Source: Maribacter hydrothermalis (lineage in GTDB: Bacteria > Bacteroidota > Bacteroidia > Flavobacteriales > Flavobacteriaceae). From it: 64,000 nucleotides of DNA. The stretch lies in NCBI RefSeq assembly GCF_001913155.1, contig NZ_CP018760.1, positions 2,170,001-2,234,000 on the forward strand. The letters are read 5' to 3'. Position numbers and translations under genes: made by a program. The notes below the pieces were generated by a model. That model ran no database searches. It was not told the origin of the DNA and saw only the letters and a list, made by a program, of their open reading frames with translations. Each line of letters begins with the position of its first letter. Positions within the stretch are counted from its first letter, which is position 1. Shown piece after piece: positions 7,772 to 52,543 of this stretch.

Positions 7772-8695
7772 TTAAATAAAATCATCTACTTTCTGATAGG
7801 CATTTATTACCGCACGTTCCCCTTCTTTTCCTTCCCGAGAGTTACCATGTTCCATACCCAGTATTCCATTAAATCCTTTATTATGAATCCATTTAAATAC
7901 ATTGCGGTAATTTATTTCTCCCGTAGTTGGTTCATTTCTTCCAGGATTATCTCCTATTTGTATGTAGGCTATCTCATCCCATGAGGATTCCATATTGGGG
8001 ATTATGTTTCCTTCCTGTATTTGTTGATGATATATATCGAATAGAATTTTACAAGACGGTGAATTAACTGCTTTACAAATTTCAAATGCCTGTGGCGAGT
8101 CGGTCAAGAATAAGCCTGGATGGTTTCTAAAATTTAAAGGTTCTAAAACCATAACAATTCCGTGTGGTTCTAATAATGCCGATGCTTGTTTAAGAGTTTC
8201 AACAACGTTAGCTGTTTGGTACCCTACTCTTAATTTTAGATCTGCATGGCCCGGTACAACTGTCATCCACTTAGCATTAACTCGTTTAGCCACATCAATG
8301 GAATCTTTAATGTAGTTTAAAAATTCGTTGCGTTTGTCTTCATCGCCCGAAGCCAAGTTTGGAGCAGTCCAATATATTTCGTGGGCAACGAAAACACCCA
8401 TTTCTAAACCACGTTTATACATGGTTGCTGCCATTTTCTTCTGTATTTCTATAGGCCGTTTACGCATTTCATTATCTTCAAATGCTGTGAAACCTTCGTC
8501 AGCCATAAAATTTAGTTGGTCAATAGGGTTGTCACCTGCATGATGTTTAAACATGCCCAAATGTGGTGCATACTTTAAATTGTAATTATAGGCATTCTTG
8601 TTATTGGAGAAGGTGTTGGCGTAACTTAATGAGCTTCCTATCGAAATTGCGCCTGTGGTTAGCGCAGATTTTTGAATAAAACTTCTTCTTTTCAT
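7772..8695 (-). CDS. Tat-exported TIM-barrel sugar isomerase (hydroxypyruvate isomerase-like)
   Basis: I choose the ATG at 8695, giving 307 residues, because it places a twin-arginine signal at the N-terminus (MKRRSFIQKSALTTGAISIG). The frame extends 14 codons further upstream without any feature. The rest is an AP-endonuclease-2-type TIM barrel (PF01261). It shows hydroxypyruvate isomerase-like features: EPLNFRNHPG with a metal-binding Glu, ILFDIYHQQ with Asp and His, and a late Glu-His pair in GMEHGNS. It is the third gene of a minus-strand operon after the GMC dehydrogenase and its small subunit. A periplasmic location beside a sugar dehydrogenase suggests it acts on an oxidised sugar. The exact substrate cannot be read from sequence. 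Confidence 0.85.
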   Translation of the reverse strand: MKRRSFIQKSALTTGAISIGSSLSYANTFSNNKNAYNYNLKYAPHLGMFKHHAGDNPIDQLNFMADEGFTAFEDNEMRKRPIEIQKKMAATMYKRGLEMGVFVAHEIYWTAPNLASGDEDKRNEFLNYIKDSIDVAKRVNAKWMTVVPGHADLKLRVGYQTANVVETLKQASALLEPHGIVMVLEPLNFRNHPGLFLTDSPQAFEICKAVNSPSCKILFDIYHQQIQEGNIIPNMESSWDEIAYIQIGDNPGRNEPTTGEINYRNVFKWIHNKGFNGILGMEHGNSREGKEGERAVINAYQKVDDFI

Positions 8696-8776
8696 GAGTA
8701 GTGTCTTTAAATGAAAATAGCCAGGAGCGATTAACAAATCATGCTCATGGCTATTGAATATTAAGATGATAATTGA

Positions 8777-9424
8777 TTATAAGGACCATGCCTTACCACC
8801 TGTAAGCTCCTGCATATCTCCACATGGAACATACTCCCCAGGAACTGGTAAATAAGCTAAAACCTCTTCACCAACGTATTCAGAAGCCTTATAGCCCCAA
8901 ATGGTCATTCCTCTTAAGTTATTGGCGAAAGCGAATCTGGTTGTATCATCGTCTAAAGTTGAGGTTTGTCCTTCAGCTATAGCTTCTGTATAACTATTTA
9001 TAGTTTCGAACATTTCGGCTTGTTGATCCTTTGTATACTTTAAGGAAGTCGCTAAAACAGGTTCTAAATCTTCTACAGTTAAGTCGTTCGCATTTTCTTT
9101 GCCAGAATCAGCTAAGGCTTTATCTATAAACCTGCCCATAGACATTTTAAAGAAGTCTTGTTGCTCTTTCTCCATAACGTCTTTAGCAAACTTGTCAATA
9201 AAAATATCAACCTGTACTTCTGAAGCAGAAGGAGTATCTGTTTTTGGTAAAATAATATCTACCAACTTAGAAAGTACTACACCTTCATTTTGAGCCAAAA
9301 ATTCTGGAGTCCAAGTTAAGGCTGGTTCACTCTTACAACTTTGAACAATTGATAACAAGGTTGGTGTGGCCACCATATATCCAAGTGACATTCCCATATT
9401 TTTTAATACACGTCTTCTATCCAT
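8777..9424 (-). CDS. gluconate 2-dehydrogenase subunit 3 family protein (dehydrogenase small subunit)
   Basis: This 215-residue protein starts MDRRRVLKNMGMSLG, a twin-arginine type signal, with a cysteine in SIVQSCKSE that could be a lipidation site. The remainder fits the gluconate 2-dehydrogenase subunit 3 family (PF13618), with the typical LVDIILPKTDTPSA and a late WGYKASEYVGE. In known FAD-dependent sugar dehydrogenases this subunit binds the GMC subunit and carries it through the Tat pathway. Its start overlaps the stop of the GMC gene by one base (TAATG), so the two are translationally coupled and probably form one complex. Confidence 0.9.
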   Translation of the reverse strand: MDRRRVLKNMGMSLGYMVATPTLLSIVQSCKSEPALTWTPEFLAQNEGVVLSKLVDIILPKTDTPSASEVQVDIFIDKFAKDVMEKEQQDFFKMSMGRFIDKALADSGKENANDLTVEDLEPVLATSLKYTKDQQAEMFETINSYTEAIAEGQTSTLDDDTTRFAFANNLRGMTIWGYKASEYVGEEVLAYLPVPGEYVPCGDMQELTGGKAWSL

Positions 9425-11133
9425 TATATGTTTCCTTTTTTAAGTTCTTTAACTGCATGGTCAGCAGCTCTGGCCGTAAAGGCCATATAAGTTAATGATG
9501 GGTTAACGCAACTAGCAGAAGTCATAAACGACCCGTCAGTTACATATACATTTGGCACATCATGTAACTGGTTATTTCCGTTTAAAACAGATGTTTTTCT
9601 GTCTCTCCCCATGCGGGCGGTTCCCATCTCATGGATTCCTAAACCTAATGCACTTTCATTATCATAGCCTTTAACCTCTTTAAGTCCGGCTTTTTCTAAC
9701 ATTTCAACAGCTGAATCTAAAATGTCTTTGCGCATTTTAAGTTCGTTTTCTTGAAGCTCGGCATCAAAAGTAACTGTAGGTAATCCCCAGTCATCTAATT
9801 TATCGTAATCTAATGTAAATCTGTTGTTTTCATAGGGTAGTACTTCTCCAAAGCCCATCATACCAAAAGTCCATCCACCTGGTTTAAGTACTGCTTCTTT
9901 TAAGTCTTTACCATGAGATAATTCGGCAATGGATTCTTCCCAGTTACCTCTAGATGCTCCACCTTGATATCCAAATCCTCTCTTATAATCTCTATCAGAA
10001 TCTCCTCCTAAGTTTCTAAATCTAGGAATGTAGATTCCACTTGGTTTTCTCCCCTTGTAATATTTATCTTCAAATCCATCGAACTTTCCCGAAGCTCCTA
10101 CTTGAAGTTGATGGTCCATAATGTTACGGCCCAATTGATCAGACTCATTACCCATACCATTAGGGAAACTTTCAGATTTTGACTGCATTAAAATAGAGGT
10201 GGATGCAATTGCAGAAGCACATAAGAAAATAACTTTTGCCTTAAACTCGAAAGTTTCTTTGGTATTAGCATCTATTACTTTTACACCTGTTGCTTTCTTT
10301 GTTTTGGGGTCATAGATCACCTCATGAACAATAGAATCTGGTCTAAGTGTCATATTTCCTGTAGCTTCAGCTGCTGGTAATGTTGAAGATAAACTACTAA
10401 AGTACGCTCCAAAAGGACACCCTCTAATACATCTGTTTCTAAATTGACATTTACTTCTTCCGTCAAATTGCTTGGTTCCTGTAATATGTGCTGTTCTACC
10501 AGCAGTTACTACACGGCCATTAAAATTTTCTGCAACTTTATCGCGGAATTCTTGTTCAACACAATTTAGGTCCATCATTGGTAAAAATTTACCATCAGGT
10601 AATTGTTCAAGTCCTAAATTTTCGCCACTAACACCAATATATTCCTCAACCTTATCGTACCAAGGTGCAATATCTTTATAGCGTACAGGCCAATCAACGG
10701 CAATTCCTTCTTTTTTATTTGCCTCAAAATCAATATCACTTAGACGATAACTCTGACGACCCCATTGTAACGAACGACCACCTAAGTGATACCCTCGCAT
10801 CCAATCGAATCTTTTTGTTTCGTTATATGGGTGCTTCAAATCATTTACAAACCACATGTTACTGGCTTGATTTGTAGTATAACCAGTCCTGTTTTGCTTA
10901 GGTTGTTGTTCAATTATTTCTTTAGTAGGTTCACCTGCATTTGGAAAATCCCACGGGTCCATATTTGCCGTTTCATAATCATCTATGTGCTTTACCATTC
11001 TGCCGCGTTCTAAAACTAGCGTTTTTAAACCCGCCTCACATAATTCTTTTGCGGCCCAACCACCACTAATTCCTGTTCCTACAACAATAGCATCATAGGA
11101 CTCTTGCTCTTCATTGTAATAAAATTTGCTCAT
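9424..11133 (-). CDS. GMC-family FAD-dependent sugar dehydrogenase, large subunit (putative glucoside 3-dehydrogenase)
   Basis: A 569-residue GMC oxidoreductase. An ADP-binding fold opens the protein (AIVVGTGISGGWAAKEL), with a Cys cluster in CQFRNRCIRGCPFGA. The C-terminal substrate half holds a candidate catalytic His in GLGIHEMGTARMG and an Asn in SASCVNPSLT. It has no signal peptide of its own, as expected for a subunit exported with a Tat-signal partner, encoded next. GMC plus subunit-3 pairs include gluconate 2-dehydrogenase and the glucoside or lactose 3-dehydrogenases. The nearby DUF1080 genes make C3 oxidation of glycosides the better guess. It is 54-60% alike by eye to the second GMC protein of the window, which is an estimate only. 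Confidence 0.88.
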   Translation of the reverse strand: MSKFYYNEEQESYDAIVVGTGISGGWAAKELCEAGLKTLVLERGRMVKHIDDYETANMDPWDFPNAGEPTKEIIEQQPKQNRTGYTTNQASNMWFVNDLKHPYNETKRFDWMRGYHLGGRSLQWGRQSYRLSDIDFEANKKEGIAVDWPVRYKDIAPWYDKVEEYIGVSGENLGLEQLPDGKFLPMMDLNCVEQEFRDKVAENFNGRVVTAGRTAHITGTKQFDGRSKCQFRNRCIRGCPFGAYFSSLSSTLPAAEATGNMTLRPDSIVHEVIYDPKTKKATGVKVIDANTKETFEFKAKVIFLCASAIASTSILMQSKSESFPNGMGNESDQLGRNIMDHQLQVGASGKFDGFEDKYYKGRKPSGIYIPRFRNLGGDSDRDYKRGFGYQGGASRGNWEESIAELSHGKDLKEAVLKPGGWTFGMMGFGEVLPYENNRFTLDYDKLDDWGLPTVTFDAELQENELKMRKDILDSAVEMLEKAGLKEVKGYDNESALGLGIHEMGTARMGRDRKTSVLNGNNQLHDVPNVYVTDGSFMTSASCVNPSLTYMAFTARAADHAVKELKKGNI

Positions 11134-11305
11134 AAAAGTTGTTTATGCTCTAAATTTATTAAATATAAAATTAATTCTATACATTTATTCTTCATTCTTC
11201 TTGCGTATTTCACTGTTATTGGCAAGTAAAATGAATAAAAAGCTAAGGTAAAGGTTAAAAACTAGTCATTTACCTATAATTTAAACAAACAACAAACAAC
11301 CAAAA

Positions 11306-12298
11306 ATGAAAAGTAAAAAATTAATTAGAATCGCTTTTATTGTAGGAATTGGAATTTCGTTATTAGGAACGTACGCTTGTAAAGAAAATAAAAAAGAAAA
11401 AGTAGAAGAAATTGAAATTGTTGAAGATGAAACTAATACAGCGCCATTTTTTGAACTTTCACTAGCACAATGGTCAATGCATAAAATGATAAATGACGAA
11501 GGAGTAGATCCATATTCTTTTGCTGAAAAAGCAAAGAATTGGGGTTTTACTGGACTTGAATATGTAAGTCAATTATATAATCCTGAATTGTCTGATGCAA
11601 ATTACTCTGAAGAGGCAATGGCAAATTTCGTCGAAAAATCCAATGCAGAGGCTAAAAAATATGGGATGAAAAATGTTTTGATCATGATCGATGGTCAAGG
11701 TAATTTAGCTGTTAACGACGAAGCGGAAAGAAACGAGACTGTTGAAAAGCATAAAAAATGGGTAGATGCTGCTGCTGCAATGGGATGCCATGCCATTAGA
11801 GTGAACCTTAATGGTAGCAATGTGCCAGAAGAATGGATCAAAAACTCTGTAGACGGATTAACAAAATTAGCTACCTACGCGAAAACTAAAAATATAAATA
11901 TTTTGGTAGAAAACCATGGTGGCTTGTCTTCTAACGGGGAACTTCATGCACAGGTAATGAAGAATGTAAATATGGATAACTGTGGCAGTTTACCAGATTT
12001 TGGAAATTTCTGTATGGAACGTAAACCGAATAGTTGGGATTGTCTAAAGGAGTATGATAAGTATAAAGGTGTTAAAGAGTTAATGCCTTATGCAAAAGCA
12101 GTAAGCGCAAAATCTAATAATTTTGATGCTGATGGCTATGATACCGGTATAGATTATGTGCAAATGCTAAAAATAGTAAAAGACGCAGGTTATACAGGAT
12201 TTATTGGTGTGGAATATGAAGGTTCTGAAATAAGTGAAGAAGCTGGGATTATTGCTACCAGAGATTTATTATTAAAGGCGGCAAACGAAATAGAGTAA
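11306..12298 (+). CDS. lipoprotein TIM-barrel sugar isomerase/epimerase
   Basis: A 330-residue protein with a lipoprotein signal: hydrophobic stretch IAFIVGIGISLLGTYAC with the lipobox Cys at about residue 25, then an acidic linker. The mature part is a xylose isomerase-like TIM barrel (PF01261), with the Glu of ILVENHGGLSS and the Asp of LPDFGNFCM as likely metal ligands. A late GVEYEGS supplies another Glu. It is divergent from the GMC operon across 172 bases and leads the + strand unit with a DinB gene and an MFS permease. The lipid anchor places it in the periplasm or on an outer-membrane face, a setting shared with the DUF1080 lipoproteins further on. Substrate unknown; a keto sugar is likely from context. 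Confidence 0.85.
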   Translation: MKSKKLIRIAFIVGIGISLLGTYACKENKKEKVEEIEIVEDETNTAPFFELSLAQWSMHKMINDEGVDPYSFAEKAKNWGFTGLEYVSQLYNPELSDANYSEEAMANFVEKSNAEAKKYGMKNVLIMIDGQGNLAVNDEAERNETVEKHKKWVDAAAAMGCHAIRVNLNGSNVPEEWIKNSVDGLTKLATYAKTKNINILVENHGGLSSNGELHAQVMKNVNMDNCGSLPDFGNFCMERKPNSWDCLKEYDKYKGVKELMPYAKAVSAKSNNFDADGYDTGIDYVQMLKIVKDAGYTGFIGVEYEGSEISEEAGIIATRDLLLKAANEIE

Positions 12299-12315
12299 TC
12301 CCGAGGGTATGATTT

Positions 12316-12759
12316 ATGGAAGCTTTTTTTAATAAAATTTTCGACTATAATTTTCACTGTAACAAGAAACTAATTGAACAATGTTTAGCGCTTGAGGCTG
12401 TTGCGCCAAATACCAAACGGGTATTCAGCCACATCTTAAACGCACATCATATATGGAACGCTAGAATTTTAAATAAACCTAGTGAATTTGAAATTTGGCA
12501 AGAGCATGAGGTAAAGGACTGGGAAGAGATTCATTACGAAAATCAGCGTAGTTCATTTGACATAGTTTCTAGTGCCGAAAATTTTGATAAGCGTATTGAC
12601 TATGAAAATATCGAGGGGCGTTTGTTTACGAATACCTTGCAAGATATTTTGTTTCATATCATAAATCATTCTACCAATCACCGAGGCCAAATTGCTGTAG
12701 ATTTTAGAATTAGCGGAGAAGATCCAATCGGTTTTGATTATGTTTATTATAAAAGATAG
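12316..12759 (+). CDS. DinB-family protein
   Basis: This 147-residue protein has the four-helix layout and metal-binding histidines of the DinB/YfiT-like superfamily: HAHHIWNARIL in the middle and HSTNHRGQ near the end. Members include metal-dependent thiol transferases and hydrolases, and many are uncharacterised. It lies 17 bases after the isomerase lipoprotein gene, and its TAG stop is followed directly by the ATG of the MFS gene, so it is embedded in the sugar operon and coupled to the permease. It could be a metal-dependent enzyme acting on an intermediate, or an unrelated passenger. Confidence 0.85.
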   Translation: MEAFFNKIFDYNFHCNKKLIEQCLALEAVAPNTKRVFSHILNAHHIWNARILNKPSEFEIWQEHEVKDWEEIHYENQRSSFDIVSSAENFDKRIDYENIEGRLFTNTLQDILFHIINHSTNHRGQIAVDFRISGEDPIGFDYVYYKR

Positions 12760-13989
12760 ATGAAAAATAAAGTTAGAGTACAGTTATGCTTTATGATGTT
12801 TTTGGAATTTTTTATTTGGGGTGCATGGTTTGTCACCTTAGGTACATTTTTAGGAAACAATTTAAAAGCGACTGACGGGGAAATAGCATTGGCATTTTCA
12901 ACACAATCATGGGGAGCTATAATTGCTCCCTTTGTCATTGGTATCATTGCGGACAGATATTTTAATGCAGAAAGAATTTTGGGAGTTTTACACCTTGTTG
13001 GTGCTACTCTCATGTATTTCATGTACCAGAGTACTGAATTCGACATGTTCTATATCTTAGTTTTAGGGTACATGATTTTATACATGCCAACTCTTGCATT
13101 GGTAAATTCAGTTTCCTTTAATCAAATGAAAAATCCCGCAAAAGAATTTTCAATGGTTAGGGTCTTTGGAACCGTAGGATGGATTATTGCAGGACTCTCC
13201 ATTAGCTATATTTTTAGTTGGGACCAAGGAGAGAATATTGGCCAAGGTCTACTTAGAAATACTTTTTTAATGACAGCTATTGCCTCTTTTATTTTGGGGG
13301 TATTTAGTTTTACCTTACCTAAAACACCACCAAAAGCTGCTAGTTCGGAAAAACTTGGTATAAAGGAAATTTTAGGGCTGGATTCCTTGAGCTTATTCAA
13401 GGATAAGAATTTTTTAATTTTCTTTATATCATCAGTTCTAATTTGCATTCCGTTGGCATTCTATTATCAAAATGCGAATCCGTTTCTTGTTGAAATAGGC
13501 ATGGATAATCCTACAGGTAAAATGACATTAGGTCAAATTTCGGAAATTGCGTTTATGTTGCTACTACCCTATTTCTTTACCAAATTCGGATTTAAGAAAA
13601 CTATACTTGTTGCTATGGCGGCGTGGGTGGCACGTTATTTATTATTTGCATTTGGTGATGTTAATGAGCTTGGCTTTATGCTGATTATCGGTATTGCGTT
13701 ACATGGTATATGTTATGATTTTTTCTTTGTTTCTGGTCAAATTTATACGGATAGTAAAGCAGGTGATAAATTTAAAAGCTCTGCGCAAGGTCTTATAACT
13801 TTAGCTACTTATGGGGTGGGTATGTTAATAGGGTTTTGGATAGCAGGAAAAATATCAACCGCTTACCTGTTAGCAGATGGTAAACATGTTTGGGAAACCA
13901 TTTGGATGTATCCTGCTGGTTTTGCGTTAGCTGTGTTTATTTTATTCGCTATTTTTTTTAAAACAGAGAAAATAGAATATCAGTCTTAG
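12760..13989 (+). CDS. MFS permease of the nucleoside:H+ symporter type (probable sugar importer)
   Basis: A 409-residue integral membrane protein with about 12 membrane segments. The N-terminus (FFIWGAWFVTLGTFL) and the loop GIIADRYF resemble the nucleoside H+ symporter family of the major facilitator superfamily (PF03825, NupG/XapB-like). In Bacteroidota, members of this group often sit beside sugar isomerases and Gfo/Idh/MocA oxidoreductases rather than nucleoside genes. The start codon follows the stop of the DinB gene with no gap. In this island it would bring the periplasmic product, perhaps a 3-keto sugar, into the cytoplasm. The substrate is inferred from context only. Confidence 0.87.
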   Translation: MKNKVRVQLCFMMFLEFFIWGAWFVTLGTFLGNNLKATDGEIALAFSTQSWGAIIAPFVIGIIADRYFNAERILGVLHLVGATLMYFMYQSTEFDMFYILVLGYMILYMPTLALVNSVSFNQMKNPAKEFSMVRVFGTVGWIIAGLSISYIFSWDQGENIGQGLLRNTFLMTAIASFILGVFSFTLPKTPPKAASSEKLGIKEILGLDSLSLFKDKNFLIFFISSVLICIPLAFYYQNANPFLVEIGMDNPTGKMTLGQISEIAFMLLLPYFFTKFGFKKTILVAMAAWVARYLLFAFGDVNELGFMLIIGIALHGICYDFFFVSGQIYTDSKAGDKFKSSAQGLITLATYGVGMLIGFWIAGKISTAYLLADGKHVWETIWMYPAGFALAVFILFAIFFKTEKIEYQS

Positions 13990-14094
13990 ATAAATTCTTT
14001 AATTTAAACGCCTGAAAATTGCTGCTCATAAAATGTTATTTCTGGTTTTTAATGAATAAATGAGCTAATTTTTTTTAGATAGTAATAGAAACAC

Positions 14095-14110
14095 AAATCC
14101 TTAAGGATTT
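14095..14110. promoter_or_regulatory. 16-base perfect palindrome upstream of the Gfo/Idh gene
   Basis: AAATCCTTAAGGATTT is a perfect palindrome without a loop, 36 bases ahead of the start codon at 14147. A loopless palindrome suits a dimeric repressor site better than a terminator, although an A-run follows. No second copy was noticed in the window. Confidence 0.4.
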
Positions 14111-14146
14111 TAAAAAAAAATATTTTCAATTTAAACAACAACAAAA

Positions 14147-15286
14147 ATGCCAAAGAAAATACGATTAGGAATATTAGGAGGTGGAGGAGATTCATTAATA
14201 GGAGTGTTGCACAGAGTAGCATCATTTATTAACGACAACTATCAAATAACAGGGGCTGTTTTTAATCCTGATTTTGATGCAAGTATGGAATTCGCCAAAG
14301 AAATAGATGTGCCTTTAAATAGAATTTATAAGGATTTTGATACTTTAATTGAAGAAGAATTAAAGTTGCCAAAAGATGAGCGTATTCAAGTTTGCTCTAT
14401 ACTTACGCCTAACTTCTTGCACTACCCAATGGCAAAAAAATTATTGGATAACGGTTTCCACGTTATTTGCGAAAAACCAATGACAACGTCATTGGCCGAA
14501 GCTAAAGATTTACAGAAATCTCATGAAAAAGCGGGTACTGTTTTCGCTTTAACGCATACCTATACCGGTTACCCAATGGTGCGCCAAATGCGTGAAATGA
14601 TTAAAGCGGGTGCGTTAGGTAAAATTCATAAAGTAGATGCAGTATATTACCAAGGGTGGATTAATACTATTATCCATGATAAAGAAAAGCGGTCTTCGGT
14701 TTGGAGATTAGACCCAGAGAAAGCAGGTATAAGCTCTTGTATGGGCGATATAGGTGTTCACGCATTTAACCTTGTAGAATATACTACAGGTCTTAAAATA
14801 AATGAGCTTCTTTGTGACTTCAATTACCTTTACGAGGATAATAAAATGGACGTTGATGGTACCGTACTTATACGTATGGGAGATCATGTAAAAGGTGTTA
14901 TTAGAGGTAGTCAAGTTGCTACCGGTGAAGAAAACGGACTTGCTATTTCAATATATGGGGAAAAAGGAGCTTTTCGATGGGAGCAGGAACGCCCTAACTT
15001 TTTATATAAATTAAGTGATACAGAACCAACACAAATATATAAACCTGGCCATGCCTATAATTCTGAACTATCTTTAGATGGCACCAAATTACCTGCTGGT
15101 CACCCCGAGGGAATTTTTGATTCAATGGCGAACATCTATAAAGGTGTTGCAAGAGCTATTAGAGGTGAAGAATATAATGATGGCGAATTCCCTACTATGA
15201 AAGACGGTGTTCGTGGCATGAATTTTATTGAAGCAACGGTAGATTCACATAAAAGTGGAAATAATTGGGTAGCATTAGAAAACTAA
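14147..15286 (+). CDS. Gfo/Idh/MocA-family NAD(P)-dependent oxidoreductase
   Basis: A 379-residue cytoplasmic dehydrogenase. The N-terminal Rossmann fold has GILGGGGDSL and the family motif CEKPMTT (around residue 110); the catalytic region has GDIGVHAFNL with an Asp and His. These are hallmarks of the Gfo/Idh/MocA family (PF01408), which oxidises or reduces sugars and cyclitols with NAD(P). No signal peptide is present. The gene has its own 157-base upstream region with a perfect palindrome and is followed by a strong terminator. In the island it could reduce an imported 3-keto sugar to the normal sugar, which is inference. Confidence 0.92.
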   Translation: MPKKIRLGILGGGGDSLIGVLHRVASFINDNYQITGAVFNPDFDASMEFAKEIDVPLNRIYKDFDTLIEEELKLPKDERIQVCSILTPNFLHYPMAKKLLDNGFHVICEKPMTTSLAEAKDLQKSHEKAGTVFALTHTYTGYPMVRQMREMIKAGALGKIHKVDAVYYQGWINTIIHDKEKRSSVWRLDPEKAGISSCMGDIGVHAFNLVEYTTGLKINELLCDFNYLYEDNKMDVDGTVLIRMGDHVKGVIRGSQVATGEENGLAISIYGEKGAFRWEQERPNFLYKLSDTEPTQIYKPGHAYNSELSLDGTKLPAGHPEGIFDSMANIYKGVARAIRGEEYNDGEFPTMKDGVRGMNFIEATVDSHKSGNNWVALEN

Positions 15287-15305
15287 AAAGTATGTAGATA
15301 GTATA

Positions 15306-15337
15306 AAAAAGAGCCGCAATTTGCGGCTCTTTTTGTT
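15306..15337. terminator. bidirectional intrinsic terminator
   Basis: AAAAAGAGCCGCAA and TTGCGGCTCTTTTT form a strong GC-rich stem with a one-base centre. A and T runs on both sides allow termination from both strands, as expected between the convergent Gfo/Idh and ASCH genes. Confidence 0.88.
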
Positions 15338-15356
15338 TTATTAAGTAGGATGATTT

Positions 15357-15818
15357 TTAAGAGTTTACTTTTTCTATGGTTTGGCACACAACGATCATAC
15401 TTTCTCTAGGTTGTCTATTGAACTTTTGCAATTCTTTAGTGAAAAAATCCCAATAATACTTTTTCCAGCTATTCAAAGTTTTATCACCATTTCCTTCTAA
15501 TTGGGCATAAGTTTCATCAATACTAAAATAGGGTTTTAGTGAAACGGCCTTTGTGGAAACAATGCATTGTGCCTCGCCACTCCAATCTGTAACCACAATA
15601 TAATCCCCAATTTTAGGTAAAGGCTCATTGCGGTTTTGCAATCCTAGTAATGAATATGAGATTGCTTTTTTAGTTCCATTTTTAATTAGTTTGGCAATTT
15701 CATTGGCATCTTGTTCATTGTCGCCAAAATGCATGGTTTTTGGTGCCTCATGAAAGACATCCTCAAGGTGATTTTTTAAATAATTCCCCCACATATTTCT
15801 GGCCGAAGCATTTTCCAT
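15357..15818 (-). CDS. ASCH domain protein
   Basis: A 153-residue protein with a recognisable ASCH domain (PF04266). LIKNGTKKAISYSL is the start of the beta-barrel, PKIGDYIVVTDWSG gives the central strand, and IVSTKAVSLKPYFSI follows. The C-terminus carries MIVVCQTIEKV. ASCH domains are PUA-like folds thought to bind RNA; some members hydrolyse acylated cytidines. It is a single gene between the convergent Gfo/Idh gene and the second GMC gene, 64 bases from the latter on the same strand, and has no evident link to sugar metabolism. Confidence 0.88.
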   Translation of the reverse strand: MENASARNMWGNYLKNHLEDVFHEAPKTMHFGDNEQDANEIAKLIKNGTKKAISYSLLGLQNRNEPLPKIGDYIVVTDWSGEAQCIVSTKAVSLKPYFSIDETYAQLEGNGDKTLNSWKKYYWDFFTKELQKFNRQPRESMIVVCQTIEKVNS

Positions 15819-15882
15819 AAGCTTTAATTTTCTTTAATCTATAGGACTTAATAAACGTTATACTTTGTAATTAATTTTAAAA

Positions 15883-17586
15883 TCAAGAAAATTTACCTGC
15901 TTTTAATTGCTCGGCTGCATGATTTGCTGCTCTTGCTGTAAACGCCATATAGGTTAATGATGGGTTTACACAGCTAGATGATGACATAAATGCACCATCC
16001 GTAACATATACATTTGGAACTAAATGTACTTGATTGTTTTTATTTACTATAGAAGTCTTTGCGTTGTGACCCATTCTTGCGCCGCCCATTTCATGAATTC
16101 CTAATCCAGGTCCGCTAGACTCTTCATATGATGATACATCTTTAAAACCAGCAGCTTCAAACATGGTTACAATTTCTTTTTTAATATCCTCGCGCATTTT
16201 ATATTCGTTTTCTTTGAATTCCACATCAAAAGCTAATTGTGGTAGTCCCCATTTGTCTTTTTCTGTTGGGCTTAGGGTAACTCTGTTATCGTCATAAGGT
16301 AAAAATTCCCCAAATCCGGTTACTCCTATGGTCCATCGACCTGGTTTTAACACTGAATCCTTTAAATCTTTACCATAGCCTAGTTCCCCAATCTCTTTTG
16401 ACCAATCTCCCCTACTTGCTGTTCCTTGATATCCAAATCCGCGTAAATAACCTTCCCGTTTTGTCTTCTCGTTAAGGTTTACGAAACGAGGTATGTAAAA
16501 TCCGTTGGCTCGTCTTCCTTTATAATATTTATCTAGATAACCTTCAACCTTAGCTGTAGCACCAAGTTTATAATGATGGTCCATAATACCTCTCCCTAGA
16601 GCATCGGAATCATTTCCTAAACCATTAGGGAAACGCTCAGATTTAGATTGTAACAAAATACCTACAGAGGCCATTGCCGAAGCGCATAGAAATATGATTT
16701 TTGCTTTGAATTCAATTTTTTCATTCGTCTCCGCATCAATAACTCGTACACCTGTAGCCTTTTTAGTAGCGTCGTCATACATGATTTCATGAACTATGGA
16801 ATTAGGTCTTAATGTCATATTACCGGTACGTTCTGCTGCAGGCAATGTAGATGAGTTACTGCTGAAATAGCCTCCAAAAGGACACCCTCGCCAGCAACGA
16901 TCTCTGTTTTGGCATGTGCCACGACCTTCAAAAGATGCATTTGGGTCGGTAATATGGGCAGTTCTACCTATCGTTATCAATCTACCATCATCAAACTTAG
17001 CTGCAGTTGTTTTTTTAAAATCTTCTTCAACACAGTTTAATTTCATGGCAGGCTGAAATTTTCCATCGGGCAATACATCTAATCCTAAGGCTTCACCGCT
17101 AACTCCAATATATTCTTCAACCTTATCATACCAAGGAGCAATATCTTTGTACCGTACCGGCCAGTCTACACCAATAGCTTCTTTTTTGTTTGCTTCAAAA
17201 TCAATATCGCTCCAACGATAGCTTTGACGTCCCCAAGTGAGCGACCGCCCGCCAACTTGGTACCCCCTAATCCAGTCGAAACGCTTGGTTTCTACGTAAG
17301 GGTGTTCTAGGTCATTTACGAAAAAATGTTTAACATCCTCACGTGGTGCCCAATTTACACGATGTTGCACATGATATTTTTTTTTATCCTCCTTCGATAA
17401 TTCTCCCTTAAGCGGGTAATCCCAAGGGTCATCGTTCATGGTAGGGTAGTCCTCTATATGTTTTACCATCGGGCCACGTTCCAAAACAAGGGTTTTTAAA
17501 CCCTTCTCAGTTAATTCCTTAGCAGCCCAGCCACCACTTATTCCTGTTCCGACTACAATTGCATCGAATATTTCGTTCTGATTCAT
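15883..17586 (-). CDS. second GMC-family FAD-dependent sugar dehydrogenase large subunit
   Basis: A 567-residue paralogue of the protein at 9424-11133. It has the same FAD-binding opening (AIVVGTGISGGWAAKEL), a matching Cys cluster (CQNRDRCWRGCPFGG), a candidate catalytic His in GIHEMGGARMG and an Asn in SSSCVNPSLT. It carries no signal peptide, and no subunit-3 gene lies beside it, so it may share the small subunit encoded at 8777-9424 or remain in the cytoplasm. It is divergent from the isomerase-DUF1080 unit across 158 bases that hold a 21-base near-palindrome. The likely role is C3 oxidation of a second glycoside class. Confidence 0.86.
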   Translation of the reverse strand: MNQNEIFDAIVVGTGISGGWAAKELTEKGLKTLVLERGPMVKHIEDYPTMNDDPWDYPLKGELSKEDKKKYHVQHRVNWAPREDVKHFFVNDLEHPYVETKRFDWIRGYQVGGRSLTWGRQSYRWSDIDFEANKKEAIGVDWPVRYKDIAPWYDKVEEYIGVSGEALGLDVLPDGKFQPAMKLNCVEEDFKKTTAAKFDDGRLITIGRTAHITDPNASFEGRGTCQNRDRCWRGCPFGGYFSSNSSTLPAAERTGNMTLRPNSIVHEIMYDDATKKATGVRVIDAETNEKIEFKAKIIFLCASAMASVGILLQSKSERFPNGLGNDSDALGRGIMDHHYKLGATAKVEGYLDKYYKGRRANGFYIPRFVNLNEKTKREGYLRGFGYQGTASRGDWSKEIGELGYGKDLKDSVLKPGRWTIGVTGFGEFLPYDDNRVTLSPTEKDKWGLPQLAFDVEFKENEYKMREDIKKEIVTMFEAAGFKDVSSYEESSGPGLGIHEMGGARMGHNAKTSIVNKNNQVHLVPNVYVTDGAFMSSSSCVNPSLTYMAFTARAANHAAEQLKAGKFS

Positions 17587-17685
17587 ACTTGAATTTTTAT
17601 CTTTTTCTAATGGTATTGCCTATATTTATAGCAAATCTCCATAGTATTGTGAGTTACTCAAAATAATTCTTAAATATAACATTAT

Positions 17686-17706
17686 TTGACGCATTTAATG
17701 TGTCAA
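17686..17706. promoter_or_regulatory. 21-base near-palindrome in divergent intergenic region
   Basis: TTGACGCAT-TTA-ATGTGTCAA is an inverted repeat with a single mismatch over 9-base arms, 39 bases ahead of the isomerase start and 100 bases from the GMC start. It has the size and symmetry of a LacI- or GntR-type operator and could control both directions. Confidence 0.5.
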
Positions 17707-17744
17707 TTACAACAACTAATTCAAACAACAGATAGTATAATTAT

Positions 17745-18797
17745 ATGAAAACAATCAAAGGACCAGCCGTATTTTTGGCACAGTTTGTAGACAGTAAAGC
17801 ACCATTTAATTCCTTGGACGGAATGTGTAAGTGGGCAGCTGATTTAGGTTATAAAGGAATTCAAATACCAACTTGGGAATCTTTTTTAATAGATTTAGAT
17901 AAGGCTGCAGAAAGTCAAACCTATTGCGATGAGCTAAAGGCTAAAGTAAACTCTTATGGTTTAGAAATAACAGAACTTTCAACACATCTACAAGGGCAAC
18001 TTGTAGCGGTACACCCCGCATATGATTTAATGTTCGATTCATTTGCTCCAAAAAATGTACATGGTAAACCAAAAGAAAGAACCCAATGGGCGGTAGAAAC
18101 AGTAAAAAAAGCGGCAACCGCGAGTAGAAGATTAGGTTTAAAAGTACATGCTACTTTTTCTGGCTCTTTGTTATGGCATACTATGCATCCTTGGCCGCAA
18201 AGACCAGCTGGTTTAGTGGAAATGGGCTTTGAAGAATTAGCAAAAAGATGGACGCCAATTTTAAATCATTTTGATAAAGAAGGAGTGGATGTTTGTTATG
18301 AAATACACCCTGGCGAAGATTTACATGATGGGGATACTTTTGAGCGTTTTCTTGAAGCTACGGGCAATCATAAACGAGTTAATATTTTATATGATCCAAG
18401 CCACTTTGTATTACAGCAGTTAGATTATATCACGTATATTGATCACTACCATGAATTTATTAAGTCATTTCACGTGAAAGATTCTGAATTTAATCCTACA
18501 GGTAAAAAAGGGGCTTTTGGTGGTTATAATGATTGGGGTAATAGAGCAGGTAGATACCGTTCATTAGGTGACGGACAAATAGATTTTAAAACCATATTTT
18601 CTAAATTAACACAATACGGATGTGATGTTTGGGCAGTAATGGAGTGGGAATGCTGTATTAAGAGTCCAGAGCAAGGTGCGCGTGAAGGTGCCAAGTTTAT
18701 ATCGGACCATATTATTGAAGCTACAGAGAAAACTTTTGATGATTTTGCAGGTGCAGAGATAGATAAAGAAATGTTGAAGAAAATGTTGGGACTTTAA
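17745..18797 (+). CDS. cytoplasmic sugar phosphate isomerase/epimerase-like TIM barrel
   Basis: This 350-residue AP-endonuclease-2-type TIM barrel (PF01261) has no signal peptide. Metal-ligand candidates are the Glu in VCYEIHPGED, the Asp and His in ILYDPSHFVL, the HVKDSEF segment and the late Glu in VMEWECC. It is the first gene of a unit with two DUF1080 lipoproteins (gaps of 10 and 11 bases). Such proteins commonly act on free or phosphorylated keto sugars, or on inosose-like compounds. With the Gfo/Idh protein and MFS permease it forms the probable cytoplasmic arm of the pathway. Confidence 0.88.
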   Translation: MKTIKGPAVFLAQFVDSKAPFNSLDGMCKWAADLGYKGIQIPTWESFLIDLDKAAESQTYCDELKAKVNSYGLEITELSTHLQGQLVAVHPAYDLMFDSFAPKNVHGKPKERTQWAVETVKKAATASRRLGLKVHATFSGSLLWHTMHPWPQRPAGLVEMGFEELAKRWTPILNHFDKEGVDVCYEIHPGEDLHDGDTFERFLEATGNHKRVNILYDPSHFVLQQLDYITYIDHYHEFIKSFHVKDSEFNPTGKKGAFGGYNDWGNRAGRYRSLGDGQIDFKTIFSKLTQYGCDVWAVMEWECCIKSPEQGAREGAKFISDHIIEATEKTFDDFAGAEIDKEMLKKMLGL

Positions 18798-18807
18798 AAA
18801 CAAGAAA

Positions 18808-19551
18808 ATGAAGAAATATATATTTAGTGCAGTATGTTTGGTAGCTTTCGTTGCATGTAAGCAAGAGAAAAAAGAAGCAACTGAAACTGCGATTGTTGAA
18901 GAAGTTGCCGTTGTTGATAATGAGTGGGAGGTGTTGTTCGACGGTACAACGTTAGACCAATGGAAGGAGTTCAAAACCGACGGTATAAGTGATGCTTGGA
19001 AAATAGACGGCGATGCTTTGGTATTTACTCCTCCTGCAGAAGGTGAAGAGAAAAAAAACCATGATTTGGTTACCAAAAAAGCGTATAATGATTTTGTGCT
19101 GTCCTTAGATTGGAAAATTTCCGAAGGTGGTAACAGTGGGGTATTCTGGGGTGTAAGTGAAGATGAAAAATTTGGAACGGGATATCAAACTGGACCAGAA
19201 ATTCAAATATTGGATAATGATAAGCATCCAGATGCGAAAGCGGGTACAACGCATCAAGCTGGTGCATTATATGATATGGTTTCACCTACAAAAGACGTCA
19301 CTAAGCCTATAGGTGAATGGAATACAATGGTTCTTACCGTTGATCATAAAGAGCATAAAGGTAATGTTACCTTGAACGGAGTGGAAATGGCGTCATTTCC
19401 TGTAGCAAACGAAGAATGGGATGCTATGGTTGCAGAATCTAAATTTGCAGGTTGGGACGGATTTGGAAAATACACTACAGGTAAAATTGGTTTACAAGAT
19501 CACGGAAATGTGGTTTCATTTAGAAATATTAAGATCAAACAACTAAAATAA
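18808..19551 (+). CDS. DUF1080 lipoprotein, putative 3-keto-glycoside hydrolase
   Basis: A 247-residue lipoprotein (signal MKKYIFSAVCLVAFVAC, lipobox Cys at residue 17) with one DUF1080 domain, now named 3-keto-disaccharide hydrolase (PF06439). Diagnostic strands are VLFDGTTLDQWK near residue 47, SLDWKISEGGNSGVFWG, and the end motif GLQDHGNVVSFRNIKIK. The concanavalin-like fold is usually secreted. In other bacteria DUF1080 proteins have been linked to cleaving glycosides already oxidised at C3. It sits between the cytoplasmic isomerase and a second DUF1080 gene. Anchoring in the periplasm fits a role after the GMC dehydrogenase. Confidence 0.9.
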   Translation: MKKYIFSAVCLVAFVACKQEKKEATETAIVEEVAVVDNEWEVLFDGTTLDQWKEFKTDGISDAWKIDGDALVFTPPAEGEEKKNHDLVTKKAYNDFVLSLDWKISEGGNSGVFWGVSEDEKFGTGYQTGPEIQILDNDKHPDAKAGTTHQAGALYDMVSPTKDVTKPIGEWNTMVLTVDHKEHKGNVTLNGVEMASFPVANEEWDAMVAESKFAGWDGFGKYTTGKIGLQDHGNVVSFRNIKIKQLK

Positions 19552-19562
19552 CATTATTACAT

Positions 19563-20387
19563 ATGAAAAATAGATACTCATTACTACTGTTAACTGCTTC
19601 TTTTGGGGTAATATCTTGTCAAGAAAAAGTAATGGTAAATGCTGATAGCAGCATGGAAGCTGTAAAAGATAGTGTAATCGTTCACGAAGAATACATGGGT
19701 GAAGAACCAACTACGCCCGAAGGAACTGAATTCTACGAACCTAAAGTTGCTGTGGTAAAACCAGGGGCAGCTAATTCCGCACCAAGTGATGCAATTATTC
19801 TTTTTGATGGTACTAGTCTAGATAATTGGGTTAGTTCAAATGACAGCACAGCAGCTAAATGGCACTTGAACAAAGATGGGAGTATGACGGTAAATGATAA
19901 AACAGGCAATATACAGACTAAACAGAATTTTAGTGATATACAGTTGCATATAGAGTGGAAATCGCCATTGCCAGTACAGAGAGATAATCAAAATAGGGGT
20001 AATAGCGGAGTTTTTTTAAACGGCATTTATGAGGTACAAGTGTTGGACCAAAACGATAATCCAACCTATGTAAACGGACAAGTTGGTTCTATATACAAAC
20101 AACATGTGCCATTAGCAATGGCTTCAGTACCTACTGGTGAGTGGAACACCTATGATATTATTTATCATGCTCCAGAATTTAACGTGGATGGTGGTAAAAT
20201 AAAATCTGGCGATATAACCGTTATCCATAACGGAGTTTTAGTTCAAGATCATGTGGAGCTTAAGGGCACTACCCCTTACATAGGCTGGCCAAAAAACCCT
20301 CCGCACGGTAAAGGACCTTTATTATTACAGGATCATGGTGATGATAGTCGTGTAAGTTTTAGAAATATCTGGGTTAGAGAATTATAA
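19563..20387 (+). CDS. second DUF1080 lipoprotein, putative 3-keto-glycoside hydrolase
   Basis: A 274-residue lipoprotein (GVISCQEK, lipobox Cys near residue 19), with a linker of about 65 residues before the DUF1080 domain (ILFDGTSLDNWV). The strand IEWKSPLPVQRDNQNRGNSG carries an insertion compared with the upstream paralogue, and the protein ends GLLLQDHGD-like (KGPLLLQDHGD) then VSFRNIWVREL. It follows its paralogue by 11 bases and is closed by a terminator at 20406-20449. Two tandem hydrolases of different loop structure suggest different glycosidic linkages as substrates, which is inference. Confidence 0.9.
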   Translation: MKNRYSLLLLTASFGVISCQEKVMVNADSSMEAVKDSVIVHEEYMGEEPTTPEGTEFYEPKVAVVKPGAANSAPSDAIILFDGTSLDNWVSSNDSTAAKWHLNKDGSMTVNDKTGNIQTKQNFSDIQLHIEWKSPLPVQRDNQNRGNSGVFLNGIYEVQVLDQNDNPTYVNGQVGSIYKQHVPLAMASVPTGEWNTYDIIYHAPEFNVDGGKIKSGDITVIHNGVLVQDHVELKGTTPYIGWPKNPPHGKGPLLLQDHGDDSRVSFRNIWVREL

Positions 20388-46100: not shown

Positions 46101-47792
46101 TTATATTTTCTTTTTTATTAGAAAATAGATAAGTACAATAAGAGTTAATATGCCTAGAATGTACCAGATTTTAGATATTTCTTTTTTAGGTTGATTGATT
46201 TCAATAATTTCTAACTGTTGATTGACTTTTACATTAGTAAGAAATTGAGTGTTTCCGCCTGTCCAGTTTACAATTACGGAATCAATAGCAGTATTATCTC
46301 CCAAACCAAAGTGTGCTATTACCGAATTTTGTGATAAGTGGCTGGATCCACCACCATCAATTTCTCTTATATTTTTTTTTCCGTTGGTAACTATAGTAAC
46401 ACGAGACCCAATCCCATTAGATTCTGATTTTACTCCTTTTAAAGCTACTTTTAACCAATTACCATTTGCAATATCATTTCTAAAAAGTCGCGTTGTTGAA
46501 ACTATTGGGTAATTTAAAATTGGCTTTTGGTTTACTACTAAAAGGTCCATATCGCCATCATTGTCCATGTCAAAAATTACAGAACCTCTACCAATCCCGT
46601 AATCATTAATGGCTAATTCTCTTCCCTTTTCAGTAAAGGTGTTGTCGTTACTTTCAAAATAGAAATTACCCATAGGTGTGCAATTCGGATTCAAATCTCC
46701 ATTACATACAAACAAATCTAAATCCTCATCATGGTCAAAATCAGCAAAATTAGCTCCCCAGCTTATGGCTAAATTGTAGGTTCCCAATTCTTTGGCTTTA
46801 TCAACAAATGGTTTCCTGTTGCCTTGGTTTTCCATAAGCATATTGAACTTTATGTTGGTAATATAATAATCCATCCATCCGTCACCGTTATAATCACCAA
46901 CTGCAGCGCCCATGGCGTTTATTTTTAGGCCCATTCCAGATTCTTTACTTGCATCTTCAAAATGGTCGTCAGGATATTCGTTTCGGTATAGAAAATTAGG
47001 AACGGCTTTATACCCAAAATCCTGATTTACCAATAAATCTTGGTCATGATCATTGTCATAATCTGTAAATACACCACCAAAACCAAATCCTTTATGTCCT
47101 AAACCATATTCGTCATATACGTTTTCAAAATTTTTACCTTCTTTATTTTCTAGTAAATAACTTTTAGCAGTTTGGTTGGCGCTAACAATAGTTGCATCTT
47201 TTATAATTCCTAGTTTGCCCGTAAACTCTTGAAAATAATTACCAACAAACAAATCGGGATAACCATCTGCATTAAAATCACCAAAACTTGGACCTGTACT
47301 GAATGAGTTTAAGTCCTCCAAACCGTATTCTTTTGTGACATCGTTGAAAGTGGCATCTCCATTATTTAAGAAGAGTAAATTTTTAGCTCGAGGTATTACG
47401 CTTTTACCGTCGGTAGTTGTAATGGTGGTGATGAATAAATCTCTATATCCATCTTTATTAATATCAGCACTTACGACACCTTGGGTAACATAATTATTAG
47501 TTATTTCTAGCCCAGAGCCTTTAAATATATCCTTAAAGGTGCCATTGCCATTGTTTAGGTACAGTTGATCAGATTTTATTCCCCCGGTTATATAAAGATC
47601 TTCGAAACCATCATTGTTAAAATCAAAAACTGTAACACCACCGCCAAATGTTCCTTCGTACACTTCATATTGGTGGTCAATACCAGCAGCTTCTGAGACA
47701 TCTGTAAAAGTTTTTTGCGCATGACTTATCCATCCATAGAAAAAAAGTAGTGTACTAAAAAATGGTATTAAAGACTTTGAGTTATTTTTCAT
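46101..47792 (-). CDS. CRTAC1-type FG-GAP/ASPIC-UnbV surface protein
   Basis: A 563-residue protein. A signal peptide (FFSTLLFFYGWISHAQ) is followed by several FG-GAP/VCBS blades of a beta-propeller with calcium-loop motifs (VFDFNNDGFEDLYI, DINKDGYRDLFI, DYNGDGWMDYYI). An ASPIC/UnbV domain follows near residue 440 (SNGIGSRVTIVTNGKKNIRE). The C-terminus has a membrane segment (IWYILGILTLIVLIYFLI) and a KKK end that would anchor it. It overlaps the haloperoxidase gene by 11 bases and is the last gene of the SusCD operon. Function unknown; carbohydrate or protein binding is possible. Confidence 0.87.
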   Translation of the reverse strand: MKNNSKSLIPFFSTLLFFYGWISHAQKTFTDVSEAAGIDHQYEVYEGTFGGGVTVFDFNNDGFEDLYITGGIKSDQLYLNNGNGTFKDIFKGSGLEITNNYVTQGVVSADINKDGYRDLFITTITTTDGKSVIPRAKNLLFLNNGDATFNDVTKEYGLEDLNSFSTGPSFGDFNADGYPDLFVGNYFQEFTGKLGIIKDATIVSANQTAKSYLLENKEGKNFENVYDEYGLGHKGFGFGGVFTDYDNDHDQDLLVNQDFGYKAVPNFLYRNEYPDDHFEDASKESGMGLKINAMGAAVGDYNGDGWMDYYITNIKFNMLMENQGNRKPFVDKAKELGTYNLAISWGANFADFDHDEDLDLFVCNGDLNPNCTPMGNFYFESNDNTFTEKGRELAINDYGIGRGSVIFDMDNDGDMDLLVVNQKPILNYPIVSTTRLFRNDIANGNWLKVALKGVKSESNGIGSRVTIVTNGKKNIREIDGGGSSHLSQNSVIAHFGLGDNTAIDSVIVNWTGGNTQFLTNVKVNQQLEIIEINQPKKEISKIWYILGILTLIVLIYFLIKKKI

Positions 47793-49143
47793 GAGTGTTT
47801 TTCCATTCTAAGGCATAAATATTCTTGGCTATTTCTACTCCTTTTTCTAACCCTACTTCATTATCTAATTGAGTATGTATTCCGCCATAAAATCTTGAAT
47901 CTGCCGTTTCTTGTGCTGCTTGCCAAAAGGTGTCAAAAGACCTAATTACAAAATCGGTTTCTTTTAATTCGTCACGTGCTCTGCCTTCATGGGCTCTATC
48001 TGTAAAAGTAAAATCTTTTCCGAAGTTATGCTCTAGTACAGTTGCTGCCGCTGCCGCTTGTATAGCATGCCCTGATGGAAATGACGGGAAAGGTGGATCA
48101 GGCCAAAATGATTCCCATTCCTCATCTATATATTTTGGTATAAAGGTATTTGGGCGTTCGGTGAAAAATTGATATTTCCATTTCCAACAATTAATAAATG
48201 CATCGGCAACAGCCATACCTACTTGCGCGTAGACCGCTGCGCATTCAATTAAATTTGAATCATGACCTTTTAACGCCAAAGTTGCAAAGTAATAAGAATG
48301 ACCAGGGGGAGTAAAACTTACATCTGGGTCGTCTCCCCACCATATAGCAGCCTCTTTTTCTAGTTGGGTAAGTTCTAGATCTTTTAAATATACATTTTCG
48401 AATTGCTTGTAATATGGAGAGCCAACAGTAGTGTCATAAGGTATCATAGTTGGGTCTTCAAGACCTTTGTTCGTTGAGGCAAAGGTTCTATTTTCTCCCC
48501 AATGTGGGTGTAATGGGTGGTGGCTAAAAGATTGGGCAAATAATGGAGGTTTCCAAGCGCCAGGTCGGTCTGGATGAACCATGGCTTTGTCGAAATTTTT
48601 CAAATATCCTCTATGACCGCCATCGGTTTTAGACCAGTTAAAAATGATATTTGCAACAGATTGTCCATATGCAACCGAACGGTCTATAGTCTCTTTATCT
48701 AAATTAACTTGATATAGATTAAAAATGGCCTGTTCAAGAGAATCTATTTTTTGAATGTTTTCTTCGGATGTTTGAACGTATATATTCTTTAAAATTTCTG
48801 ATTGCCCTGCATTTAATGCCAATACCCAGTTATATTCTTTTGAATCATCTACAATAGGAAGCATATCTAAACCTTTTAATTGCCCGTTCATTGATTTATA
48901 CTCAGAAAAACCGGGCACTATAGATTCATACATGGTGAGACCCATATACCCAAATGCCCTAGATGCAAAAGTGGGAGAGTTAGAGGGTGTGTATCTAGTA
49001 ATAAACAAGGTCATATTCGCCCATTCTAAAGCCACTTCTTTATCACTCATTTTTGGCTGCTCGGTTGTAGAACATGCTACAATAAGCAAGAGAAGTACTA
49101 TGGTAGAAATTTTTATAAGTGTTTTAATTAAGGAACTAGTCAT
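47782..49143 (-). CDS. vanadium-dependent haloperoxidase-like PAP2 protein, lipoprotein
   Basis: A 453-residue protein with a lipoprotein signal (IVLLLLIVACSTTEQ, Cys about residue 24). The C-terminal half carries the full vanadate-binding signature of vanadium haloperoxidases and PAP2 phosphatases: KYQFFTERP (K-x6-RP), FPSFPSGH, and DSRFYGGIHTQLD (SR-x5-H-x3-D). These bind vanadate or phosphate in the active site. Known members oxidise halides with H2O2, but many bacterial relatives may be phosphatases. It is the fourth gene of the SusC-SusD operon and overlaps the next gene. The substrate cannot be told from the sequence. Confidence 0.88.
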   Translation of the reverse strand: MTSSLIKTLIKISTIVLLLLIVACSTTEQPKMSDKEVALEWANMTLFITRYTPSNSPTFASRAFGYMGLTMYESIVPGFSEYKSMNGQLKGLDMLPIVDDSKEYNWVLALNAGQSEILKNIYVQTSEENIQKIDSLEQAIFNLYQVNLDKETIDRSVAYGQSVANIIFNWSKTDGGHRGYLKNFDKAMVHPDRPGAWKPPLFAQSFSHHPLHPHWGENRTFASTNKGLEDPTMIPYDTTVGSPYYKQFENVYLKDLELTQLEKEAAIWWGDDPDVSFTPPGHSYYFATLALKGHDSNLIECAAVYAQVGMAVADAFINCWKWKYQFFTERPNTFIPKYIDEEWESFWPDPPFPSFPSGHAIQAAAAATVLEHNFGKDFTFTDRAHEGRARDELKETDFVIRSFDTFWQAAQETADSRFYGGIHTQLDNEVGLEKGVEIAKNIYALEWKNTHEK

Positions 49144-49157
49144 CGTTAAGTTAAGAG

Positions 49158-52499: not shown

Positions 52500-52512
52500 T
52501 TGTTTAAAAGTA

Positions 52513-52543
52513 AAAAATCTATCCCAAAAAGGGATAGATTTTT
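52513..52543 (-). terminator. intercistronic hairpin/terminator between susD and the VCBS gene
   Basis: AAAAATCTATCCC and GGGATAGATTTTT form a 13-base perfect stem around AAAAA. On the minus strand a T-run follows, so it can stop part of the transcripts after susD. It lies 40 bases past the susD stop and ends 14 bases before the VCBS start. Confidence 0.8.

Follow-up and report, generated by a model that had tools for sequence, protein, structure and literature searches.

Marine flavobacteria are known glycan degraders, which are usually described via their SusCD loci and glycoside hydrolases. How glycosides might be used by a gene set that carries neither is the question raised by a locus in the 4.27-Mb single-contig genome of Maribacter hydrothermalis (GCF_001913155.1, contig NZ_CP018760.1), which was analyzed within a stretch of 64,000 nucleotides (positions 2,170,001 to 2,234,000; hereafter the window, to whose positions coordinates refer). 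According to the list of open reading frames, twelve genes fill positions 7772-20387, and profile searches among their proteins gave no match to SusCD or a glycoside hydrolase, as the initial annotation of this DNA had stated. Our analysis suggests that the locus probably encodes a non-hydrolytic 3-keto-glycoside pathway distributed over two compartments.

This reading is mainly carried by the protein HYD, which aligns over its full length with the solved 2-hydroxy-3-keto-glucal hydratase PDB 8ro4 (547 bits; 228 of 350 residues identical, 65%) and is, by sequence, a hydratase homologue. Its residues E186/H188, D217/H220, H243 and E300/E302 are invariant in 13 sequences, and its closest named relatives among the matches listed belong to Maribacter, with 98% identity to M. 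spongiicola. A homologue of a glucal hydratase that is this close over its full length favours a route of oxidation, elimination, hydration and reduction over plain hydrolysis. The initial annotation had assumed that the products are imported and then reduced or isomerised; the outline of import and reduction stood, but one of its isomerase-like barrels is this glucal hydratase homologue, so that the product would be hydrated and then reduced.

Read from gene content, homology, conservation, linkage and motifs, the route would begin in the periplasm, where the GMC-family dehydrogenase GMC1 and a subunit 3 exported by twin-arginine translocation (Tat) may oxidize C3 of a glycoside; GMC2 would be a second dehydrogenase, possibly sharing subunit 3. 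Electrons would pass from flavin adenine dinucleotide (FAD) via a probable iron-sulfur (Fe-S) centre to an acceptor encoded elsewhere. The 3-keto-glycoside might be cleaved by elimination through the DUF1080 lipoproteins, perhaps through the exported barrels too, and the released 3-keto-glycal or 3-keto-sugar would be imported by a NupG-type permease. In the cytoplasm, strong homology suggests that HYD would hydrate 2-hydroxy-3-keto-glucal to 3-keto-glucose, which the Gfo/Idh enzyme, judged from its family and linkage, could reduce to the hexose. A narrower version is tentative and rather doubtful when all its parts are taken jointly: lipoprotein lyases would release 2-hydroxy-3-keto-glycal, the NupG-type permease would import this glycal, hydration and reduction would occur in the cytoplasm only, the barrel protein TIM_lipo would be an unstudied periplasmic lyase or epimerase, and the inverted element TATATTTA/TAAATATA would switch the whole. 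If the proposed pathway is true, Maribacter and its kin possess a conserved chromosomal, hydrolase-free glycoside route that is invisible to glycoside hydrolase searches, and it becomes directly testable whether a glycoside, a 3-keto-sugar or a glycal crosses the inner membrane.

The features of the locus are given below from left to right, with gene families assigned by Pfam-A, all above the curated cut-offs; the families named in the initial annotation were all recovered in this way.

7772..8695, minus strand: TIM_Tat, putatively exported xylose-isomerase-like barrel, hydroxypyruvate isomerase / ketose 3-epimerase group (PF01261)
8777..9424, minus strand: subunit 3, Tat-like start MDRRRVLK, possible lipobox with Cys30 (PF13618, 95.3 bits)
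9424..11133, minus strand: GMC1, catalytic subunit of an FAD dehydrogenase, CX5CX3C motif, proposed glycoside 3-dehydrogenase (GMC N and C domains)
11306..12298, plus strand: TIM_lipo, putatively exported lipoprotein-like barrel, relative of 4ovx, proposed 3-keto-glycoside lyase or epimerase (PF01261)
12316..12759, plus strand: DinB-family protein (59.7 bits, cut-off 23)
12760..13989, plus strand: MFS permease, nucleoside-H+ symporter family, proposed importer of a 3-keto sugar or glycal (PF03825, 388.8 bits)
14147..15286, plus strand: Gfo/Idh/MocA oxidoreductase, proposed 3-keto-hexose reductase (Pfam-A)
15357..15818, minus strand: ASCH-domain protein (Pfam-A)
15883..17586, minus strand: GMC2, second GMC dehydrogenase (GMC N and C domains; 67% identity to GMC1)
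17621..17628, no strand: TATATTTA, left half of a conserved inverted pair between GMC2 and the hydratase homologue HYD
17671..17678, no strand: TAAATATA, right half of the inverted pair, starting 50 bp after the start of the left half
17745..18797, plus strand: HYD, 2-hydroxy-3-keto-glucal hydratase homologue (PF01261; 8ro4, 547 bits)
18808..19551, plus strand: DUF1080a, lipoprotein-like, 3-keto-glycoside cleaving family (PF06439, 160.8 bits)
19563..20387, plus strand: DUF1080b, lipoprotein-like, of a different subgroup from DUF1080a (PF06439, 142.8 bits)

Divergent genes flank two intergenic regions of the locus, 11134-11305 and 17587-17744. The listed reading frame of TIM_Tat (7772-8737) begins with TTG at 8737, and the ATG at 8695 yields the Tat-like start MKRRSF.

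Conservation and linkage of the locus

A genome scan with the hydratase returned at least 590 stretches with at least 587 hydratase relatives, of which the best 80 were kept; these loci were selected on HYD (at least 90% identity) and come from close kin. A gene was counted if tblastn aligned half or more of the query, and loci ended by contig edges were counted as they stand, so that the counts are lower bounds. HYD is present in all 80 loci, ASCH in 77, DUF1080a in 75, Gfo/Idh in 74, TIM_lipo in 70, DinB in 69, DUF1080b in 67, GMC1 and the permease in 65 each, subunit 3 in 61, GMC2 in 53 and TIM_Tat in 38, mostly in the same order. Since every other gene recurs in 38-77 of the 80 related loci, the clustering is not due to chance. 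The ASCH gene had been described as the sole interruption, which overlooked the DinB-family gene at 12316-12759; moreover, ASCH is no mere interruption, because 77 loci keep it, and it is kept even in loci without a GMC2 match.

The flanking genes are similarly stable, with gmk in 77 loci, nadD in 76 and yicC, which follows the locus, in 77. The GC content is 0.35-0.38 in the locus, 0.29-0.34 in the left and 0.32-0.34 in the right flank. The term island was hence inappropriate, and a recent acquisition was ruled out by synteny in close kin and by composition. The locus is also less complete than first assumed: among its genes there is neither a regulator nor an outer-membrane porter, its proteins lack a cytochrome c, and GMC2 has no adjacent subunit 3.

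The co-occurrence of the genes was analyzed in 148 Bacteroidota genomes, with statistics that ignore kinship. HYD occurs in 33 of them, TIM_lipo in 30 and GMC1 relatives in 49, including five genomes with only distant ones (33-37% identical). All 33 genomes with HYD contain a GMC1 relative vs 16 of the 115 without HYD (Fisher p ~3e-21, kinship ignored), and a GMC is likewise found in 30/30 genomes with TIM_lipo vs 19/118 without it. In 20 of the 33 genomes HYD lies within 15 kb of a GMC gene.

Proposed oxidation, cleavage and compartments

Among 46 PDB matches of GMC1, fructose and glucose dehydrogenases are nearest, with full-length alignments to the large subunits of fructose dehydrogenase (7w2j, 137 bits) and glucose dehydrogenase (6a2u, 128 bits). 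The CX5CX3C motif of GMC1 (residue 229) aligns with the equivalent cysteines of fructose dehydrogenase, which are ligands of a 3Fe-4S cluster; it is kept in 129 of 129 homologues above 40% identity from the fetched loci and occurs also in GMC2. GMC1 and subunit 3 are only proposed to form a glycoside 3-dehydrogenase, because C3 regiospecificity is unreadable from sequence. The locus provides one subunit 3 for two GMCs, while the genome holds four GMC proteins and three subunit-3 proteins. One other GMC (54% identical to GMC1) lies with a subunit 3 in stretch L002 (1590-9963; genome positions 3160589-3168962) near SDR, ROK, SIS, FAD oxidoreductase, phosphotriesterase-like and Gfo/Idh genes, and the annotation of the Haliscomenobacter plasmid L098 shows a similar gene set.

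N-termini were judged by a simple analysis with loose patterns. Tat-like RR starts were seen in subunit 3 and, from the ATG at 8695, in TIM_Tat; TIM_lipo (Cys25), DUF1080a (Cys17) and DUF1080b (Cys19) have hydrophobic starts of the lipoprotein type that include a lipobox cysteine. TIM_lipo of the window lacks RR, and the consensus of 42 aligned relatives starts with MKRR. With these patterns no signal peptide was detected on GMC1 or GMC2. Enzymes of this class are known to be exported on the back of the Tat subunit, and subunit 3 may carry GMC1 across the membrane in this way. By the same patterns an export-type start is absent from HYD and Gfo/Idh, hence the final steps are probably cytoplasmic. 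The Gfo/Idh protein belongs to its family by profile and is a candidate 3-keto-hexose reductase. Its homologue directly adjoins the hydratase in loci L091-L094, L096 and L101.

With two PF06439 proteins scoring well over the cut-off, the locus holds two members of the 3-keto-glycoside lyase/hydrolase family, as candidate cleaving enzymes. In PDB sequence matches DUF1080a groups with 4jqt, 3osd and 8rr2, and DUF1080b with 4qhz (260 bits). Both contain QDHG (residue 230 in DUF1080a, 256 in DUF1080b), and Q-x-H-G is kept in 70/77 and 54/72 homologues above 40% identity, respectively, hence it is not universal in DUF1080. In Bacteroides thetaiotaomicron, the H275N variant of a 3-keto-O-glycoside lyase is hydration-deficient (PMC13273386); this lyase may be a DUF1080 protein and its His275 the histidine of QDHG. 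The genome contains eleven PF06439 domains, 7 of which are separated from every one of the four GMC genes by over 15 kb, and two are arranged in tandem in one frame (3151409-3152680).

Regarding the exported barrels, the position of the usual metal-ligand histidine is Ser267 in TIM_lipo and invariant in 42 sequences, hence this histidine is apparently absent. Foldseek placed 4ovx first, followed by chains of Dgp/Dfg complexes; the Z scores of Dgp/Dfg (24.8-26.5) are under those of the isomerase Art22 (28.9) and 3wqo (26.6), with generic barrels at about 24.2. A DUF6379-type small beta subunit, which would accompany an alpha barrel of the C-glycoside deglycosidase type DgpC/CarB, had no match among the locus proteins. 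The Agrobacterium enzyme AtOGE did not appear in the PDB sequence matches and listed fold matches of the exported barrels, an absence that excludes nothing. A second TIM_lipo homologue with a Tat-like start is found in L121 (10857-16262; genome positions 356856-362261), where it adjoins a ThuA protein, and beside it is encoded a 1162-aa ThuA-GSDH-PKD-cytochrome c-CBM6 protein.

Known systems and competing explanations

LacABC/DUF1080 clusters and the four-step pathway have already been published (PMC9007349, PMC10628242), and the Maribacter locus is a further example rather than a new kind of system. Besides LacABC and DUF1080, a transporter, two epimerases and a reductase are important for lactose use by Caulobacter, and CCNA_01705 was proposed as 3'-ketolactose hydrolase (PMC9007349). 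This cluster and its counterparts in Halomonas, Algoriphagus and Indibacter resemble our locus in the dehydrogenase, DUF1080, transporter, two epimerase-like proteins and sugar reductase, with oxidation and cleavage of the Caulobacter system likewise proposed as periplasmic (PMC9007349). Unlike it, the Maribacter locus has no cytochrome c gene, while it has two GMC genes, two DUF1080 lipoproteins and three barrels. The Agrobacterium route comprises C3 oxidation (GlycDH), beta-elimination by AtOGE, hydration by AtHYD, reported as preliminary, and Gfo reduction, and shares with our locus a dehydrogenase with a Tat protein, a hydratase and a Gfo reductase, functions that are putative in Maribacter (PMC10628242); it differs in that Maribacter has DUF1080 lipoproteins, and AtOGE was not among the PDB sequence matches of the exported barrels. 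Oxidation, elimination, hydration and reduction are also the reactions of the four levoglucosan enzymes LgdA-B1-B2-C of Bacillus smithii, where LgdA depends on nicotinamide adenine dinucleotide (NAD), in contrast to the GMC enzyme of Maribacter (PMC7676230). Finally, B. thetaiotaomicron BT2157/BT2158 combine a periplasmic glycoside 3-dehydrogenase with DUF1080 cleavage (PMC9007349, PMC11300592), and BT2157 is cited as 3-ketotrehalose hydrolase (PMC9007349). The Maribacter Gfo/Idh falls outside the BT2158 family (NF058561, 37.1 bits, cut-off 750), and a GMC enzyme is proposed as dehydrogenase instead. A literature search, which covered few subscription papers, listed no work on Maribacter naming DUF1080 and none in which at least four of GMC, Gfo Idh MocA, sugar phosphate isomerase, Bacteroidetes and DUF1080 occur together.

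Similar part lists exist at larger distance. Eleven plasmid loci (eight Pseudomonadota, three Bacteroidota), picked from hit lists and not sampled, contain a HYD match in 8 cases, a GMC in 8 and both in 6. The Xanthomonas and Hymenobacter clusters encode GMC (54-58% identical), DUF1080 (51-52% to DUF1080b) and permease (54% and 55%) relatives together with subunit 3, Gfo/Idh and HYD; in the Sphingomonas cluster the permease is unmatched by sequence, yet an annotated MFS protein is present. TIM_lipo had no match in the Sphingomonas, Xanthomonas, Hymenobacter and Pseudoalteromonas loci. A small cytochrome c gene belongs to the cluster in 3 of the 11 loci (Sphingomonas, Xanthomonas, Hymenobacter), and in Rhizobium a cytochrome c is the electron acceptor of an FAD glucoside 3-dehydrogenase (PMC9915066). 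In the Maribacter genome, the sequences most closely related to the Hymenobacter cytochrome form domains of large frames far from the locus, at positions 359 kb and 121 kb on the contig.

The initially annotated idea of 3-keto-glycoside catabolism, in which the parts for oxidation and cleavage are exported and a permease and a reductase take part, is supported in outline. Several observations count against the proposed pathway. HYD is separated from GMC in 13 of the 33 genomes, HYD is missing from 12 of the 30 genomes with TIM_lipo (and present in 18), and locus L083 contains HYD, Gfo/Idh and the permease without a GMC or DUF1080 match. In Pseudoalteromonas, the identity of the GMC is as low as 31-33%, while tblastn found no match to the permease, subunit 3 and second barrel, whose likeness is one of annotation only. 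The name glycoside 3-dehydrogenase is absent from the 46 PDB matches of GMC1, and the twelve locus proteins include no cytochrome c match as in LacABC-type systems. In Pedobacter sp. GW460-11-11-14-LB5, 0 of 10 DUF1080 genes had a lactose phenotype (PMC9007349). Moreover, the Bacteroides lyase of the pathway hydrates the glycal too (PMC13273386), so that HYD would be partly redundant. In a hydrolytic version, in line with the initial annotation, the DUF1080 proteins would fully hydrolyse the 3-keto-glycoside in the periplasm, the cell would import 3-keto-glucose and need only reduce it, and HYD would clear glycal from spontaneous elimination. This version would agree with the name of PF06439, 3-keto-disaccharide hydrolase, and with the QDHG histidine of both DUF1080 proteins, which may equal the hydration histidine of the Bacteroides lyase (PMC13273386). 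However, the strong conservation of HYD in the loci selected on it and its co-occurrence with GMC in 33/33 genomes fit an obligatory step better than salvage, and we regard this version as unlikely.

Other functions are less probable still. Sugar oxidation at C1, C2 or C5, of the aldonate, ketogluconate or fructose dehydrogenase type and unrelated to glycoside cleavage, would match the closest solved relatives of GMC1 and the naming of the subunit 3 family after gluconate 2-dehydrogenase; it is very unlikely, given that no part in such oxidation is known for DUF1080, HYD and Gfo/Idh, which nevertheless recur with GMC in kin and in other phyla. Even less should be expected of cyclitol or rhizopine catabolism, in which GMC and Gfo/Idh would oxidize inositol and an IolE-like barrel dehydrate inosose. 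The matches that suggested it stay below the cut-offs (HYD to IolE 62.4, cut-off 290; Gfo/Idh to IolG 46.8, cut-off 355; exported barrels to IolO 59.8 and 27, cut-off 300), HYD reaches 547 bits against the glucal hydratase, and IolB, IolC and IolD were unmatched (Pfam, twelve proteins; NCBIfam, 10 of the 12); inositol catabolism was set aside on these scores. That the genes are chance neighbours under separate regulation is the least probable explanation: mixed strands, the DinB and ASCH genes inside, TIM_Tat in just 38 of 80 loci and L083 would speak for it, but the genome co-occurrence and the similar part lists elsewhere argue against it.

The inverted pair upstream of HYD

Upstream stretches of HYD were compared for 78 loci and the window. 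A flavobacterial promoter form, TTG-N17-23-TAnnTTTG, was found in 0 of these 79 stretches. Both TATATTTA and TAAATATA occur in 70 of the 79, and the closest pair is spaced 42-51 bp start to start in 70/70 and exactly 50 bp in 34. Column identity is 0.91-0.99 in both octamers and 0.42-0.45 in the spacer blocks. By itself, TTAAATATARR shows no enrichment in the window (2 found vs 1.35 expected); what stands out is solely the spaced pair. In the genome, a nine-base form of the inverted pair occurs once and its reversed control never. Judged from its sequence, the pair could represent a pair of operators or two promoter elements placed back to back.

Within the 64-kb window, neither RNA families at the gathering threshold nor tRNAs were found. 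About 32 kb downstream of the locus, SusC-like and SusD genes are located together with genes for FG-GAP/UnbV_ASPIC proteins (46101-57693).

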